Positions 3,630 through 9,697 of a stretch of DNA of 34,677 nt are shown in pieces. Position 1 is the stretch's first letter. Each line of letters starts with the position of its first letter. Source of the DNA: Actinomycetota bacterium (GTDB lineage: Bacteria > Actinomycetota > Acidimicrobiia > IMCC26256 > PALSA-610); the NCBI GenBank assembly GCA_003134555.1, contig PLBO01000067.1:1-34677 (forward strand), written 5' to 3'. A model generated the notes under the pieces. It was not told the DNA's origin, did not search any database, and worked only from the letters and a program-made list of their open reading frames with translations. Both the position numbers and the translations under genes were made by a program.

Positions 3630-4076
3630 TTACGTGTCGACGACGACCCAACCGCGCATGCCGTACGCCAAGTGACCGGGCAAGTGGCACGCGAAGAGGA
3701 GACGGCCGGGCCGGTCGAAACGATAGAACGTCTCCCCCACGTCGGTGGGCGCGACGGAGACCTCACCCGGCACCGGCGGATGCGTCGCTTCCTTGCCCTG
3801 CTCGTGACGCGCATGCACAGCGGCGTCGCCGACGATGAACTCGTGATGGATCGGGTCGTCATTGTGGATCAGGAAGCGCACCACCGTTCCTGTCCGCACG
3901 TGCAGCGTCGAGAGCGAGAACTTGCTGTAGTGGATGCCGATATCGACCGTGACGAGTCCGGGCCCGAGCGCCGCCGGCGCGCCTTCGGCGTGCGCGCCGG
4001 CGTTCATCGCGTATCCGCCGACGGCAGTCGCCGCCGCGACGAGGAGCGAGAGCGAGGCCCTGACCAACCACTTCAC
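3630..4076 (-). CDS. Exported cupredoxin (type 1 blue copper) protein
   Basis: A 148-residue protein with an N-terminal hydrophobic signal or anchor (about residues 5-25), then one cupredoxin domain. A complete type 1 copper site is visible: a His in the IHHEF segment (about 77-78), then Cys130, His135 and Met140 in CHLPGHLAYGM, with the plastocyanin spacing C-x4-H-x4-M. It should carry one electron or bind copper outside the membrane; the partner is unknown. The GTG start at 4076 overlaps the upstream DUF2330 stop as GTGA, so the two are translationally coupled. A longer in-frame upstream reading was rejected because it runs back through the DUF2330 gene and is Arg-rich. Confidence 0.85.
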   Translation of the reverse strand: MKWLVRASLSLLVAAATAVGGYAMNAGAHAEGAPAALGPGLVTVDIGIHYSKFSLSTLHVRTGTVVRFLIHNDDPIHHEFIVGDAAVHARHEQGKEATHPPVPGEVSVAPTDVGETFYRFDRPGRLLFACHLPGHLAYGMRGWVVVDT

Positions 4077-5143
4077 GCCGCGACTCCCGCGAACCGGCGT
4101 CGACGCCCGACGAGCGCGACCGCACCGAACGTCAGCGTGCCGGTGATCACCGCGGCGACGAACGGCCAGGTCGCCCAACCCGGTTCGGGCACGGCCACCG
4201 GGCGCACCACCGACGCGAGGACACCGGTGTCGGCGAGCAGCGGGACCGCGTTCGGGTGGTCGGAGACCGCGAGGTCGTAACCGAGCAGTCCGGCGGGCAC
4301 GTCGAGCTTCAGGTAGGTGAACCACATGTTCGACGGCATCCAGCCCATGCCCTTGTCGATGCGGAGATCGGCGAGCAGCCCGCTCGACGCGGCCTCGTTG
4401 CGCTGCAGGCTGAGTCCACTACCGCCCGCGAGCAACTTCGGCTGCTGGTCGGTCAGCAGGAAGACATCGGCGGCAACCACCGTCGCCTTGTCGAGACCGA
4501 GGCTCAGGATGTGCAACGGCACCCACGGCTCCCGCACCGGGATCGTCAGCATGATCGGGGTTCCGTCGCCCGTGCCTTGACCGAGTTGCTGCGCGCGCGT
4601 GGCGTCGAAGCGCGCGGCCATGAAGATCGGGCTGCGCCGGCCGTAGAAGTCGAGCATCGCCGGTGCGTCGGGCGTCAACAGGAACCCGTGGTCGACGGCC
4701 CACTTCCCGACCTCCGCCCCGCCGCCCTTGAGAACGGTGATGTCGAGCGCGTCGATCTTCGTCTGGTACAGCACTTGCGCACTCTTTTGTGAAGACGGCG
4801 CGCTCAGTGCGTCGTTGAACGCGAACCTCTCGGGGGGAGCGACCTCGCGCTCGAGGCGCTGCAGCGTCCAACTCCCACCGCGTTCCACTTTCGTGGGAAT
4901 GCCGGGCAGGGGAACGATGGATCCCACCGACTTGCCCTGCCCGCTGAACTCGAACGAGGTGACGTAGCGCTCGACACCGTTGTGGAAGGCGGCGAGCGTC
5001 GTCGTGCGCGTGAGCTTGATGCTCCCGTTCTCGCCGACCAACCCACCGCACGCAACCGCGGGCGAGGCCATCGCGACCACGACGGCGGGCACCGCGGCGG
5101 CGAAGAGCATCCGGGACACGACGCGACCCAATCCTTGCGACAT
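4073..5143 (-). CDS. Secreted, membrane-anchored DUF2330 protein
   Basis: A 356-residue protein resembling DUF2330. A signal peptide ends near residues 30-31 (PAVVVAMASPAVACGG), leaving an ACGG-type mature N-terminus typical of this family. The conserved region includes FEFSGQGKSVGSIVPLPGIP, followed by repeated beta-rich stretches such as LTIPVREPWVPLHILSLG and MWFTYLKLDV. One C-terminal membrane helix (WPFVAAVITGTLTFGAVALV) is followed by an Arg-rich tail, so the body lies outside the cell. ATG 5143 has a good ribosome-binding site, GGAGGT, three bases upstream. The biochemical role of the family is unknown; coupling to a blue-copper protein hints at copper- or redox-linked work at the cell surface, which is inference. 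Confidence 0.8.
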   Translation of the reverse strand: MSQGLGRVVSRMLFAAAVPAVVVAMASPAVACGGLVGENGSIKLTRTTTLAAFHNGVERYVTSFEFSGQGKSVGSIVPLPGIPTKVERGGSWTLQRLEREVAPPERFAFNDALSAPSSQKSAQVLYQTKIDALDITVLKGGGAEVGKWAVDHGFLLTPDAPAMLDFYGRRSPIFMAARFDATRAQQLGQGTGDGTPIMLTIPVREPWVPLHILSLGLDKATVVAADVFLLTDQQPKLLAGGSGLSLQRNEAASSGLLADLRIDKGMGWMPSNMWFTYLKLDVPAGLLGYDLAVSDHPNAVPLLADTGVLASVVRPVAVPEPGWATWPFVAAVITGTLTFGAVALVGRRRRFAGVAA

Positions 5144-5229: not shown

Positions 5230-6489
5230 CTATTCCTCGGTAATTCCGTAGTGCGCCACGTAGGGCGCGAAGGTTGCCCGCACGTGTGCCTCGTCGAGGC
5301 CGAGGTCGGCATATGAGTAGGCGTGCACCCCGTGCTTGGCCTTGGGCTTGGCGTCGAGGTAGCCGGAGATCGCCCGATCGTGACCCTTCGGCCAGTCGTA
5401 ACCGAGCTGGTCGTAGACCCGGTGGAGCATGGCAACCGGTTCCGACATCAGCTCGAGGAAGTGCGTGTCGACGATCTGGTCGTCGGGCACGGTCCCGCCG
5501 GTGCGCTGCACGATCACCTGCTCGAGAAACAATTGATACGTCATCTCCATGATCGGGCCGAGCGTCATCCGCTCGTCGCGATCGCTACGCATGAATCGCA
5601 AGACCGCGAGCAGGCTGACGAGCGAGGCGATGAACCGGCGCGGGTCGCGATGCGTGTGGATGACGCGCGCGTCGGGATACTCGGCGAAGAGCGCGGCCAG
5701 CGTCGACAGATGTCCGGGCGACTTGAGCAACCAGCGGCGCGGCGCCGCGCTGCTGGTTGCACCGTCGAAGCCGTGCTGGAACGTTTGCAGCATGCGCCGG
5801 TGAAGGCGGTACACGCGGCCGAGCGTGTCGAGGTTCTCGAGCTGCCAGCCGGTGAAGCTCGGCGTGTCGTAGAGCATGCTCCAGTAGGGCCCGGCGAAGT
5901 CGTACATCAAGAAGTGCACGCACTCGCACGGCAGGTCGCTCGCGAGCTCGTGCATCGTCATGAACTCGGGATGGATGTCGGCCCAGAACTCCTGCTCGCA
6001 TTCCGACAGCTCGCGCCGGCGTTCGGGATCGCCCTCGTCGGCGAGCGGGTGCAGCGCCTCCCACGCGACCGGCGCGCGCAGCTGCGGGTCGAGCGCGAGC
6101 AACTCCAGAAGGATCGTCGTGCCGGTGCGGGGCGGACCCACCACGAACAACGGCGCCTCGATCGACTCAGCCCGGATCGCGGGCCGCGTCGTCCACACGC
6201 GTTGGAGGCGAAGCCTGGTCTGCAACACCTTCAAGAGCTCCGCACGGGTGACGACGCGACCCAACGCGTGCAGCCTTGCTTCCGCGTCGATCGCCGTCAC
6301 CATCCGGCGATACGTGTCGGTCCAACCGGGCCAGTCGTCCTCGCCCAGATCGTCGAGTCCGGTCGACGCCCGCGCGGTGGCCAGCAACTCGTCGGGCTCG
6401 AGACCCGCGAGCAATCGCGGGTCTCCCACGACGTCGCCGAACAGGTTCAGGCGGCGTACCCAATCCGGATGCACGAGCGCCTCGGTCAT
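5230..6489 (-). CDS. PAPS-dependent sulfotransferase family protein
   Basis: A 419-residue protein of the bacterial sulfotransferase family, expected to move sulfate from PAPS to a hydroxyl group. The 5'-phosphosulfate loop is FVVGPPRTGTT (about 116-125), and the 3'-phosphate site is the segment VIHTHRDPRRFIASLVSL. Between them lie conserved family stretches such as APVAWEALHPLADEGDPERR and WLLKSPGHLSTLAALF. ATG 6489 is chosen because a minus-strand TAGCGT box lies 8 bases upstream; the open frame extends further but passes through the divergent acyl-CoA synthetase gene. In actinobacteria such genes often neighbour lipid or sterol genes, and here one faces an acyl-CoA synthetase. The acceptor is unknown. 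Confidence 0.88.
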   Translation of the reverse strand: MTEALVHPDWVRRLNLFGDVVGDPRLLAGLEPDELLATARASTGLDDLGEDDWPGWTDTYRRMVTAIDAEARLHALGRVVTRAELLKVLQTRLRLQRVWTTRPAIRAESIEAPLFVVGPPRTGTTILLELLALDPQLRAPVAWEALHPLADEGDPERRRELSECEQEFWADIHPEFMTMHELASDLPCECVHFLMYDFAGPYWSMLYDTPSFTGWQLENLDTLGRVYRLHRRMLQTFQHGFDGATSSAAPRRWLLKSPGHLSTLAALFAEYPDARVIHTHRDPRRFIASLVSLLAVLRFMRSDRDERMTLGPIMEMTYQLFLEQVIVQRTGGTVPDDQIVDTHFLELMSEPVAMLHRVYDQLGYDWPKGHDRAISGYLDAKPKAKHGVHAYSYADLGLDEAHVRATFAPYVAHYGITEE

Positions 6490-6538
6490 GTTCCCGGACG
6501 CTACAACTCGTAGCATCCGACCGGTCCAGGAGGGAGCA
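6490..6538. promoter_or_regulatory. Divergent promoter region, sulfotransferase / acyl-CoA synthetase
   Basis: This 49-base gap serves both genes. On the minus strand TAGCGT (plus 6498-6503) ends 8 bases before the sulfotransferase ATG, a leaderless arrangement. On the plus strand AGGAGGG (6528-6534) is a strong ribosome-binding site, one of the few clear ones in the window. It stands 5 bases before GTG 6539 and 11 bases before ATG 6545. Confidence 0.5.
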
Positions 6539-6544
6539 GTGAGC

Positions 6545-8209
6545 ATGCGGACGATCGCCGAGCTCGTCGCGGCGCGCGCCGACGACACGAGCACCGGACT
6601 GATCTTCGAAGACCGATCGTGGACGTGGGCGGAGGTCGAGCACGAGTGCGCGGTGCGGGCCGCGATGCTGCGTGCGACCCGACGCACCGAGCGCGCGCCG
6701 TTCCACGTCGGGGTGCTGCTCGACAACGTTCCCGAATACGTCTTCCTGCTCGGCGGAGCCGCGCTGGCCGGAGCCGCGGTCGTCGGCATCAACCCGACCC
6801 GGCGGGGCGCGGAGCTCGCGCACGACATCCGGCACACCGACTGTGGGCTCGTCGTCACCGAGGAGGCACATCGACCGCTTCTCGACGGCCTCGAGCTCGG
6901 CGTCGACGACGACCGCATCGTCACCATCGAATCGGACACGTGGGCGGCGTGGCGCGAAACGAACGCGGACGCCGCGCTCCCGACGGAGCTCCCCGGCCCC
7001 GAGACGCTCTTCGTCCTCATCTTCACGTCGGGGTCGACCGGCACGCCCAAGGCCGTGCGCGGAACCCAGGGGCGGTTCGCGAGCCTGGGTGAGCGCATGC
7101 CGTTCGGGCCCGACGACGTGCTGTACTGCCCGATGCCGCTGTTCCACGGCAACGCGCTGGCGTCCAATTTCGTGCCCGCGTTGACGTGCGGAGCGGCGAT
7201 CGCGTTGCGGCGGCGGTTCTCCGCGTCGGAATTCTTCGACGACGTCCGCCGCGTGGGCGCGACCTACTTCAACACGGTGGGCCGCGCACTCTCGTACGTG
7301 CTCGCGACGCCGCCGTCGCCCGACGACCGGACGCACAGGGTCAAGTTCGCGCTCGCACCGGAAGCGTCAGACCGTGACGCGCGCGCGTTTCGCGAACGCT
7401 TCGGCATCCCGCTCGTCGCCGGGTACGGCTCCAGCGAAGGCGCGATCATCATCACGCCGGTACGCGATGCGAAGCCGGGCGCGCTCGGACTGCCCCCGGC
7501 CGGTACCGACGTCGCCGTCGTCGATCCCGAGACCGGCGTCGAATGCCCGCGCGCCGAGCTCGACGACGACGGACGGCTGACGATCGAGTCCGGGGCAGTC
7601 GCGATCGGTGAGATCGTGCGGCGCGACCCTCACCTCGTCTTCGAGGGCTATTACAAGAACGACGAGGCGAACGCCGAGCGCAACCGCAACGGCTGGTACT
7701 GGTCCGGCGATCTCGGGTACCGCGATCACGACGGCGTCTTCTACTTCGCGGGCCGGACGGCCGACTGGATCAGGGTCGACGGCGAGAACTTCGCCGCGGC
7801 GCCGATCGAACGGATCATCGGCCGTCATCCCGACGTCGCCGCGGTCGCGGTCTACGGCGTACCCGATCCGGTCACCGGCGACCAGGTGATGGCCGCGCTC
7901 GAGCTGCGCCCCGGGCGCGCGTTCGCCGCGATCGACCTCGCCGCGTTCCTCGACGCCCAGCCGGATCTCGGTACCAAGTGGGCGCCGCGCTTCGTGCGGG
8001 TCGTCGACGCGCTTCCTGTCACCGGCGCGGACAAGATCGCAAAGGTCCCGCTACGCGCCGCCGCGTGGGCCACGGGCGAGGGCGAGGTGTGGTGGCGGCC
8101 GGAGCGCGGCGGCGGGTACGAACGGCTGTCCGAAGCGGCCGCCGTCGAGCTCGCGCAACGCTTCGCACAACACGGCCGCGTGGCTCTGTTGCCCCCGTCC
8201 CCCGCATAG
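6545..8209 (+). CDS. AMP-binding acyl-CoA synthetase (FadD-like)
   Basis: A 554-residue ANL-superfamily ligase that would activate a carboxylic acid, probably a fatty or cyclic acid, to its CoA thioester through an acyl-AMP. Visible signatures are the P-loop IFTSGSTGTPKAV (about 159-171), FALAPEASDRDARAF, VAGYGSSEGAIII (A5), GWYWSGDLGYRDHDGVFYF (A7) and DWIRVDGENFAAAPIE (A8). The probable catalytic lysine is in VTGADKIAKVPL near the C-terminus. Length is normal. GTG at 6539 is in frame two codons upstream and better spaced from the AGGAGGG site, so either start may be used. It resembles mycobacterial FadD17-type enzymes from memory, but the substrate is not shown by sequence. Confidence 0.9.
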   Translation: MRTIAELVAARADDTSTGLIFEDRSWTWAEVEHECAVRAAMLRATRRTERAPFHVGVLLDNVPEYVFLLGGAALAGAAVVGINPTRRGAELAHDIRHTDCGLVVTEEAHRPLLDGLELGVDDDRIVTIESDTWAAWRETNADAALPTELPGPETLFVLIFTSGSTGTPKAVRGTQGRFASLGERMPFGPDDVLYCPMPLFHGNALASNFVPALTCGAAIALRRRFSASEFFDDVRRVGATYFNTVGRALSYVLATPPSPDDRTHRVKFALAPEASDRDARAFRERFGIPLVAGYGSSEGAIIITPVRDAKPGALGLPPAGTDVAVVDPETGVECPRAELDDDGRLTIESGAVAIGEIVRRDPHLVFEGYYKNDEANAERNRNGWYWSGDLGYRDHDGVFYFAGRTADWIRVDGENFAAAPIERIIGRHPDVAAVAVYGVPDPVTGDQVMAALELRPGRAFAAIDLAAFLDAQPDLGTKWAPRFVRVVDALPVTGADKIAKVPLRAAAWATGEGEVWWRPERGGGYERLSEAAAVELAQRFAQHGRVALLPPSPA

Positions 8210-8232
8210 TTCGTCGCGCCTCCGACCAGGCG

Positions 8233-8334
8233 TTGGGCGCGAAACCCGGCGCGTGGGACCGGTTTTCCACCCAACAGTTGCGCGCAAAAACCGGCGCGTG
8301 GGACCGGTTTTCCACCCAACTGTTGGGCGCGAAA
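8233..8334. repeat. 45-bp direct tandem repeat (two full units, one partial)
   Basis: Units at 8233-8277 and 8278-8322 share an exact 30-base core (8246-8275 and 8291-8320), and a third partial unit starts at 8323 (TTGGGCGCGAAA, 8323-8334). The period is exactly 45 bases. Where units meet, CCCAAC-TG-TTGGG (8315-8327) and flanking TTTC/GAAA form an imperfect hairpin. The array fills most of the 147-base gap between the acyl-CoA synthetase and the first glycosyltransferase. No coding function is seen. Confidence 0.9.
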
Positions 8335-8342
8335 TGGGCGTG

Positions 8343-8348
8343 TACGAT
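8343..8348 (+). promoter_or_regulatory. -10 box for leaderless glycosyltransferase gene at 8357
   Basis: TACGAT fits TAnnnT and ends 8 bases before ATG 8357. There is no ribosome-binding site between them. It lies just after the tandem repeat array. Confidence 0.45.
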
Positions 8349-8356
8349 CGCCGGCC

Positions 8357-9697
8357 ATGGCCGAGGCGGAAGGGGGCGACCTCGCATCGCCCCGGTTCGC
8401 CCTCGCGCTCGCCGTCATCGCGCTCGTCGCGCTCGGGATCCGCATCGCGTTCGTGGTCGTGGTCGCGCCGCGAGTGCCCACGCTCGGCGACGCGAGCGCG
8501 TATCACCTCCTCGCCGAGCACCTCGCGCACGGCGGGGGCTACATCCGGCCGTTCGACGACCTGCTGCTCCACATCCAGCGGCCGACGGCGGAGTACCCGC
8601 CGCTGTTCCCCGCCCTGCTGTCGTTGCCGGCCCGCCTCGGCGCGCACTCCGTCGACCAGCAGCGCATCTTCCTGGCTTTCGTCGGCGCGGCCACCGTCGG
8701 GCTCGTCGGGCTGCTCGGCCGCAGGGTCGCATCCAGCACGGTCGGGCTCGTCGCGGCCGCCCTCGCGGCCGTCTACCCGATGCTCTTCCTCAGCGAGGCG
8801 ACGCTGATGGCCGAGTCGCTGTACGTCGCGCTGGTGGCGCTCCTGCTCCTGTGTGCCTACCGCGCGTACGACGATCCGAAGCCGGCTCGCTTCGTCGCGC
8901 TCGGCGCGGCCATAGGGCTCGCCACGCTGACCCGCGCCGAGGGCGCCCTGCTCGGTGTGGTGGTCGCGGTTCCGCTGGGCATGCTGCTGCGCGACCTCAC
9001 GGCGCGCGCCCGGATCGTGAAAGTCGCGATCGCGCTCGGCGTGGCCGTCGTCGTCGTGGCGCCGTGGACGATTCGCAACGCGGTGCGGTTCCACGAGTTC
9101 GTGCCGGTGTCGAACAACGTCGCCACCCTCGTCGACGGCGCGAACTGCGACGCGACCTACGGCGGCGCCCAGCTCGGCCTGTGGCGTGAGACCTTCTCGC
9201 AATTCGGCAACGCCGCCCGCGCGCTCCCGCAGGCGAAGGCCTGCTTCGAAGGATTCGACATCGCCGACCCGCACTTCGACGAGGCCAAGGCCGCGAGCGC
9301 GCACACGCGCGCGGGGACGAGCTATGCGCGCCACCACCTCGGCTCGCTCCCGAAGGTGACGGTCGTACGCGTGCTGCGCACCTGGGGGGTGTACGCACCC
9401 AGGCAGCAGGTGAGCTTCGAGTCGCTCGAAGGACGCCCGCGCGCGTGGGAGCTGCGCGGCACGTTCATGTACTGGGTGCTCGCGCCGCTCGCGATCGCCG
9501 GTGCCGTGCTGATGCGCCGCCGGCGGCGCTTGCTGTGGCCGCTCGTCGCGACCGCAGTGACCGTGACGATCGTCGCGGCGGCGACCTACGGCCAGCAACG
9601 CTTCCGGATCGCGGCGGAACCCGCGATCCTCGTTCTCGCCGCGGTCACCCTGGTCGAGCTCGGACGCGTCGCGCGCACCCGTTCGGTGGCACCGTGA
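8357..9697 (+). CDS. GT39/ArnT-like membrane glycosyltransferase, paralogue A
   Basis: A 446-residue polytopic membrane protein with GT-C features, likely using a polyprenyl-phosphate sugar on the outer face of the membrane. After the first helix comes the acidic motif GDASAYHLLAEHLAHGGGY, then EYPPLFPALLSLPARLG, which corresponds to the HPPL motif of GT39/PMT-like enzymes. About eight to ten helices can be seen, then a soluble stretch with DGANCDATYGG and a final segment TYGQQRFRIAAEPAILVLAA. These landmarks recur in the genes at 13376-14719 and 25749-27125, which are clearly paralogues. ATG 8357 is the only sensible start and is supported by the adjacent -10 box. Sugar and acceptor are unknown. 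Confidence 0.85.
   Translation: MAEAEGGDLASPRFALALAVIALVALGIRIAFVVVVAPRVPTLGDASAYHLLAEHLAHGGGYIRPFDDLLLHIQRPTAEYPPLFPALLSLPARLGAHSVDQQRIFLAFVGAATVGLVGLLGRRVASSTVGLVAAALAAVYPMLFLSEATLMAESLYVALVALLLLCAYRAYDDPKPARFVALGAAIGLATLTRAEGALLGVVVAVPLGMLLRDLTARARIVKVAIALGVAVVVVAPWTIRNAVRFHEFVPVSNNVATLVDGANCDATYGGAQLGLWRETFSQFGNAARALPQAKACFEGFDIADPHFDEAKAASAHTRAGTSYARHHLGSLPKVTVVRVLRTWGVYAPRQQVSFESLEGRPRAWELRGTFMYWVLAPLAIAGAVLMRRRRRLLWPLVATAVTVTIVAAATYGQQRFRIAAEPAILVLAAVTLVELGRVARTRSVAP

Follow-up and report, generated by a model that had tools for sequence, protein, structure and literature searches.

The window in this study, that is, the whole stretch of 34,677 nucleotides that was analysed, carries a tandem hairpin array within a 147-bp gap between an AMP-binding gene and a PMT_2 glycosyltransferase gene (Table 1). 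The array begins 22 bp after the TAG stop codon of the upstream gene (8207-8209), and 8 bp separate its end from the -10-like element TACGAT. Both TACGAT and the ATG at 8357 lie where the original prediction had placed them. At the orthologous spot in G003, another genome of the same genus, the stretch from TACGAT to the ATG is conserved, so the promoter upstream of the glycosyltransferase gene itself looks real as judged from the sequence. Elsewhere in the window, a DUF2330 protein is encoded on the reverse strand at 4076-5143 (Pfam PF10092, 2.7e-09).

Table 1. Coordinates of the array, its parts and its neighbours in the window
Feature	Position	Strand	Remarks
Upstream AMP-binding (acyl-CoA ligase-like) ORF	5960..8209	+	Pfam PF00501 5e-54
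Tandem hairpin array, 2.3 units of 45 bp	8232..8334	.	TRF and covariance-model matches
Unit 1	8232..8276	+	left-end palindrome half eroded; starts at GTTGGGCGC
Unit 2	8277..8321	+	41/45 identical to unit 1
Partial third unit, GTTGGGCGCGAAA	8322..8334	+	13 bases, then ends
Hairpin/palindrome, centre A8276, CCACCCAACAGTTGCGCGC	8267..8285	.	
Hairpin/palindrome, centre T8321, CCACCCAACTGTTGGGCGC	8312..8330	.	
TACGAT, -10-like element	8343..8348	+	outside the repeat; conserved at the G003 ortholog
Downstream PMT_2-type glycosyltransferase	8357..9697	+	ORF; Pfam PF13231 4.1e-14

The original prediction described a 45-bp tandem repeat with an identical 30-base core in two units and a third unit cut short, and our analysis confirms all of these features. 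The array is the top-scoring of the 34 TRF rows for the window (period 45, score 178). The two complete units differ at only four of 45 positions (5, 10, 14 and 45), which leaves an identical run of 30 bases, 8246-8275 being the same as 8291-8320, and the third unit indeed ends after GTTGGGCGCGAAA. The junctions had also been said to fold (CCCAAC-TG-TTGGG); the second junction is a perfect CCCAAC-W-GTTGGG palindrome, but the first reads CCCAACAGTTGCG and has one mismatch. Because a 22-base core with up to three mismatches occurs twice in the window against 0.01 expected, chance is no explanation of the repeat. The covariance model R1, built from 21 pair units (alignment A1), matches the window at 8264-8333 (75.2 bits) and 8219-8288 (61.1 bits), both of which were among its building sequences. 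The RNA fold of the array is moderately stable, with z -2.98 for 8225-8340 and z -1.98 for 8205-8356, while as single-stranded DNA its stability is not above that of shuffles (z -0.80; 44 of 200 did equally well). No terminator-like site was found at 7900-8600. No Rfam family matches the window above its gathering score, and a search of 8180-8380 at E<=5 returned just three miRNA families, far below their gathering scores.

A dispersed and effectively genus-restricted family of tandem hairpins

The repeat in the window is one member of a dispersed, extragenic family of tandem hairpins that is effectively restricted to a single uncultured actinobacterial genus, which its named relatives would place in the Acidimicrobiia. 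A BLAST search with the array against the genome to which the window belongs (G000, 4.6 Mb) gives 34 matches at E<=10 and 21 at E<=0.01, self-matches and both strands counted. The motif CCAACWGTTGG occurs there at 22 sites, mostly with a partner 45 bp away, compared with 2 sites for the reversed control, and R1 finds 19 places at E<=0.01 after merging of matches. These results bear out the suggestion in the original prediction that the repeat is a copy of a dispersed genomic one. A product of slippage had been suggested as well. The unit recurs at 19 places in its own genome and at orthologous spots in sister species with the same architecture, and such recurrence rules out local slippage as the full account, although the number of units fits local duplication.

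The other three genomes of the genus (G001-G003) are 74-88% complete. R1 is positive in 4/4 genus genomes, with 42, 64, 85 and 104 matches among those listed, both strands counted. Among the matches listed for ten other genomes of the family, with up to 150 candidates scored per genome, there is one weak match, in G008, which does not resemble the element. In the order, searched with up to 87 candidates and stricter filters, five of 58 genomes are positive at E<=1e-4 among the matches listed, namely the four genus genomes and G026. The latter, a genome of another family, has two R1 matches at no fewer than one place, on a contig that carries the same kind of array (L251, G026:C144). The flanks of this array share 87-90% identity with G002 across 1.3-1.6 kb, and we therefore read the contig as probably misbinned or recently transferred. 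When R1 was applied to 25 of 80 loci from named relatives, one matched (L171) and another did so weakly (L183, E 0.012). Since R1 requires two hairpins, single hairpins are under-counted by it; one of the 22 perfect cores in the own genome is single.

The architecture of the unit was read from 91 loci, a subset of all places, comprising 18 from the own genome, 18 from G001, 20 from G002 and 35 from G003. The unit is a palindromic hairpin with an AACWGTT centre, and it is repeated directly every 44-46 bp, mostly two to four times. Pairs of ACWGT 10-120 bp apart fall at 42-46 bp in 121 cases and at 86-90 bp in 38, with 13 elsewhere. We identified 201 strict hairpins in 86 of the 91 loci; they were selected for ACWGT, so that its invariance among them is by construction. 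They form 87 arrays, of which 63 have two hairpins, 18 have three, five have four and one has a single hairpin. Neighbouring hairpins (n=114) are direct in 65 cases, inverted in 6 and tied in 43. As regards a consensus across the genome, the stems are of several types and ACWGT stands at the model positions in 83 of 91 first hairpins, a count that is based on 91 best hits from 90 of the 91 loci (L097 omitted), covers first hairpins only and comes from a model that itself favours ACWGT. More diverged hairpins than the strict set also exist, as indicated by L099 (G003:C190), where at about 1900-1985 hairpins of the GTTGCAAACAGATTGCAAC type with an ACAGA centre adjoin a CTCCC-type array.

The arms of these hairpins pair well above chance. 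At six stem positions (4-9 from the centre) in 146 distinct hairpins, 72.8% of the cells are Watson-Crick pairs, compared with a mean of 55.0% and a maximum of 59.0% in shuffles, none of 500 reaching the observed value, and with 22.4-41.4% when one side is slid by 1-3 bases; related hairpin rows are not independent, and these controls are therefore guides. Pairing is often imperfect: among 100 distinct arm sets, six are paired throughout the six positions and 60 at four or more of them. In the 21-row alignment, 70.1% of the cells pair against 65.2% after shuffling. Double changes in the stems number 139, compared with 25-60 in the slid versions, while the 12 pair types are not above the 8-13 of the slid versions. 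Pairing outside the stem, at position 3 and at positions 10-12, is not above expectation. As RNA, eight of eight arrays hand-picked from the 87 fold with z -2.2 to -7.9. In several of the minimum-energy folds, hairpins 1 and 2 pair with each other to form a rod, and counts of discordant cells for pairing within the palindrome and with the neighbour's arm are close (55 vs 48 and 80 vs 83). The centre bases of neighbours, however, are mostly identical rather than complementary (86 vs 28 of 114), so the rod is not favoured. In two of the eight arrays, L101 (G003:C380, 805-915) and L005 (G000:C41, 1475-1590), an outer stem is formed by flanking bases that pair across the array, and with z -7.9 and -5.4 both rank high among the eight in fold strength.

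Stem types differ among the genomes. The commonest are CTGCC and TTGCAA in G002, CTGCC, CTCCC and TTGCAA in G003, and CACCAA or CGCCAA in G001, and those of G000 are a mixture of GTGCC, CACCC/CGCCC and TTGCC. Single arrays may also hold two or three stem types, as in L112 (G003:C343) and L115 (G001:C295), both at 2001-2160, where one type gives way to another at hairpin centres, a pattern that resembles an exchange of blocks.

Persistence between species and position at gene ends

By matching flanks among array-bearing loci we found 41 interspecies orthologous pairs, in which 14 of the 18 own loci have a partner; as only array-bearing loci were searched, this persistence is not comparable with loss. 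Identity of the coding flanks averages 82-90% per genome pair, and one pair (L001-L107) rests on a single flank at a contig end. Judged by eye, stem types mostly differ in the 29 pairs that involve G000 or G001 and are mostly alike in the 12 pairs between G002 and G003. Five pairs have no strict hairpin on one side and were excluded; the remaining 36 yield 432 stem cells for comparison, of which 203 hold the same pair, 34 have changed on both sides with pairing kept, 152 are paired in one species and 43 in neither. With 152 one-species cells against 34 double changes, stem change is not strictly compensatory. At the window spot itself, G003 keeps the upstream gene (76% identity over 868 bp) and has hairpins of the GTTGCAAAC type, and the same 99 bases are found at the end of the named MAG RYN_52. 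Behind the upstream gene of L172, a named relative at a greater distance in which this gene is 69% identical, there is no array. At one junction, G002 and G003 carry an array that G000 and G001 lack; another gene ends at an array in G002/G003 and lacks one in G000, but with a different neighbour there. The first of these junctions, taken together with the orthologous arrays, shows that some places have seen gain or loss of the family while others have retained it.

The arrays lie beside the ends of genes. Based on genes called with a home-made caller, 80 of 86 clusters lie between two called genes, 3 overlap a called gene and 3 have a gene on one side only. Of the 81 array gaps, 39 are convergent, 39 tandem and 3 divergent, compared with 14, 132 and 42 of 188 array-free gaps from the same loci. 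Among array-free gaps of at least 60 bp (n=50) the corresponding numbers are 1, 22 and 27; array gaps are long partly through holding the array itself. The median distance from the array is 11 bp on the stop side (n=117) and 50 bp on the start side (n=45). These positions, after many different genes, beside stop codons and rarely in divergent gaps, do not agree with the idea in the original prediction that the repeat is a regulator-binding array for the downstream gene, and neither does the spacing between the last hairpin centre and TACGAT, for which the window has 21 nt but G003, whose last hairpin has diverged, has 14 nt. A repeat next to a promoter can thus belong to the 3' end of the preceding gene.

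When hairpins are read from a gene end, just 7 of 250 readings (2.8%) have at least five T among the 10 nt that follow, as expected of a U-tract. These 10 nt hold A at 2.5 and T at 1.7 per 10, and T reaches 32-40% at positions 11-13. The sense strand in tandem gaps shows 13 G.U pairs and 21 A.C mismatches, compared with 15 and 9 in convergent gaps, where the strand is arbitrary, and the centre base in tandem gaps is A in 46 cases and T in 44. With G.U not above A.C and the centre bases in balance, nothing points to selection on an RNA strand.

Possible roles and relation to known systems

We favour the interpretation, to which we give a probability of about one half, that the family is a REP/BIME-like array of hairpins at 3' ends, perhaps acting as a strand-symmetric boundary of transcription. 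Its position, pairing and persistence are the reasons for this preference. The family would have been dispersed by a process that does not involve a RAYT transposase, and each array would then have grown by local tandem duplication. Where an array persists, it may serve as a strand-symmetric 3'-end structure, its hairpins forming in the mRNA of either flanking gene, and, as with REP/BIME elements, the clustered hairpins could stop read-through or shield the 3' end although no U-tract follows them. Several observations stand against such a function: the usual U-tract is missing, G.U pairs are not in excess on the sense strand, many stems are imperfect, one junction is array-free in two species, and few genes are served, since 19 places in a 4.6-Mb genome mean that most genes end without an array. 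The single-stranded DNA fold of the window array, no better than that of shuffles, and the relative L172 with its array-free gene end count against it as well.

A serious rival, which we regard as quite possible, is that the arrays are a neutral or selfish, non-autonomous element that spread in waves, has no host function and is tolerated only behind stop codons. Its palindromes would stay near-perfect through template switching during replication, and slippage would add units. The low share of genes served, the junction that is array-free in two species, the lack of sense-strand bias and the many imperfect stems all agree with this account, and so does the dominance of CTGCC-type stems in G002/G003, shared places included, which suggests a recent wave. 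It is less easily reconciled with arrays at both members of 41 orthologous pairs, often with other stems (although these loci were chosen as array-bearing), with an ACWGT centre that is kept in 83 of 91 first hairpins while the stems vary (although the model favours it), and with the finding of no Y1 transposase in the four genus genomes. A binding site for a symmetric DNA-binding protein, with a nucleoid-associated or gyrase-like role at gene ends, is in our view unlikely. Here the protein would recognise AACWGTT in double-stranded DNA, and its array would be set by the 44-46 bp spacing. The idea stays as a lesser rival because the conserved centre forms a palindrome of its own, something not needed in a hairpin loop; the centre is moreover strand-neutral and the spacing nearly fixed. 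Complementary and freely varying stems, however, are unexpected for a sequence-specific dimer site.

Two further explanations appear very improbable. An operator array controlling the glycosyltransferase promoter would fit the closeness of the array to TACGAT, but the same arrays lie between convergent genes, with just 3 of 81 gaps divergent, and the centre-to-TACGAT distance is different in G003. Still less credible are integron-like attC recombination sites. Such sites have conserved AAC/GTT, are driven by structure and lie behind genes, and the arrays may resemble them in their conserved AAC and GTT triplets and variable complementary arms. In the arrays, however, AAC and GTT are one base apart within one palindrome, and recO- and carA-like genes, identified by eye, are among their neighbours. 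No integron integrase scores above the curated TIGR02249 cut-off in any of the four genus genomes, three of them incomplete, and the lower scores look like ordinary tyrosine recombinases because all 14 control genomes are also positive.

A bolder reading, to which we give a modest probability, is that the family is an element that is recognised by its structure and is independent of Y1/RAYT, with stem sets that switch between sister species. If this were true, the element would be defined by the shape of the hairpin, its AACWGTT centre and a period of 44-46 bp and not by stem sequence, and the switches of stem sets at fixed positions would imply a species-specific cognate factor or a genome-wide concerted replacement. 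The interest of the family is that, at many places, the stem sequence has been replaced while shape, centre and spacing have stayed. The 87 arrays in 86 loci, together with the 41 orthologous pairs, provide a comparative set in which above-chance pairing is kept while sequence is swapped. With this set it becomes possible to test whether REP-like repeats persist for their shape at gene ends and to ask how such repeats spread without a Y1 transposase.

REP/BIME elements are short extragenic palindromes that occur many times per genome, are clustered and are frequent at gene ends and in convergent gaps. The arrays of the genus resemble them in being repeated (19 places in the own genome), palindromic and extragenic. 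They differ in that their stems are not conserved between loci or species and that they are arranged as direct tandem repeats of 44-46 bp. The Y1/RAYT transposase (PF01797) was found in none of the four genus genomes, three of which (G001-G003) are 74-88% complete, while 5 of 14 controls were positive. Among the matches listed from the open-licence literature we found no description of the hairpin repeat of this genus. REPINs are hairpin-forming repeats with a preferred spacing that occur across extragenic space, with tandem clusters as well (PMC3116915), and the arrays are alike in all of these respects. REPINs are also inverted REP doublets linked to RAYT (PMC3116915); the neighbouring hairpins of the arrays are mainly direct (65 direct, 6 inverted and 43 tied of 114), and no RAYT was found in the four genus genomes, so that two defining features of a REPIN were looked for and not found.

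The position of the arrays is a familiar one, since stem-loops in 40 genomes are reported to favour gaps between convergent genes and the first 50 bp behind a stop codon (PMC1590033). A canonical intrinsic terminator was considered and rejected: the hairpins lie near the stop codon (median 11 bp), but the usual U-tract does not follow them. Intrinsic terminators of Bacillus cereus are described as showing compensatory stem evolution (PMC5381666). The arrays are similar in that stem pairs change on both sides between related genomes; they differ in lacking the usual U-tract and in that orthologous stems often differ in several pairs at once. Clustered hairpins have been proposed as terminators that depend less on poly-U (PMC8355165), and the arrays resemble these, too, in having several hairpins close behind a stop codon, an arrangement common in GC-rich genomes according to the same source. 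Such clustered terminators are predicted from folding alone, whereas the arrays of this genus form a repeat family with a fixed centre and a fixed period.
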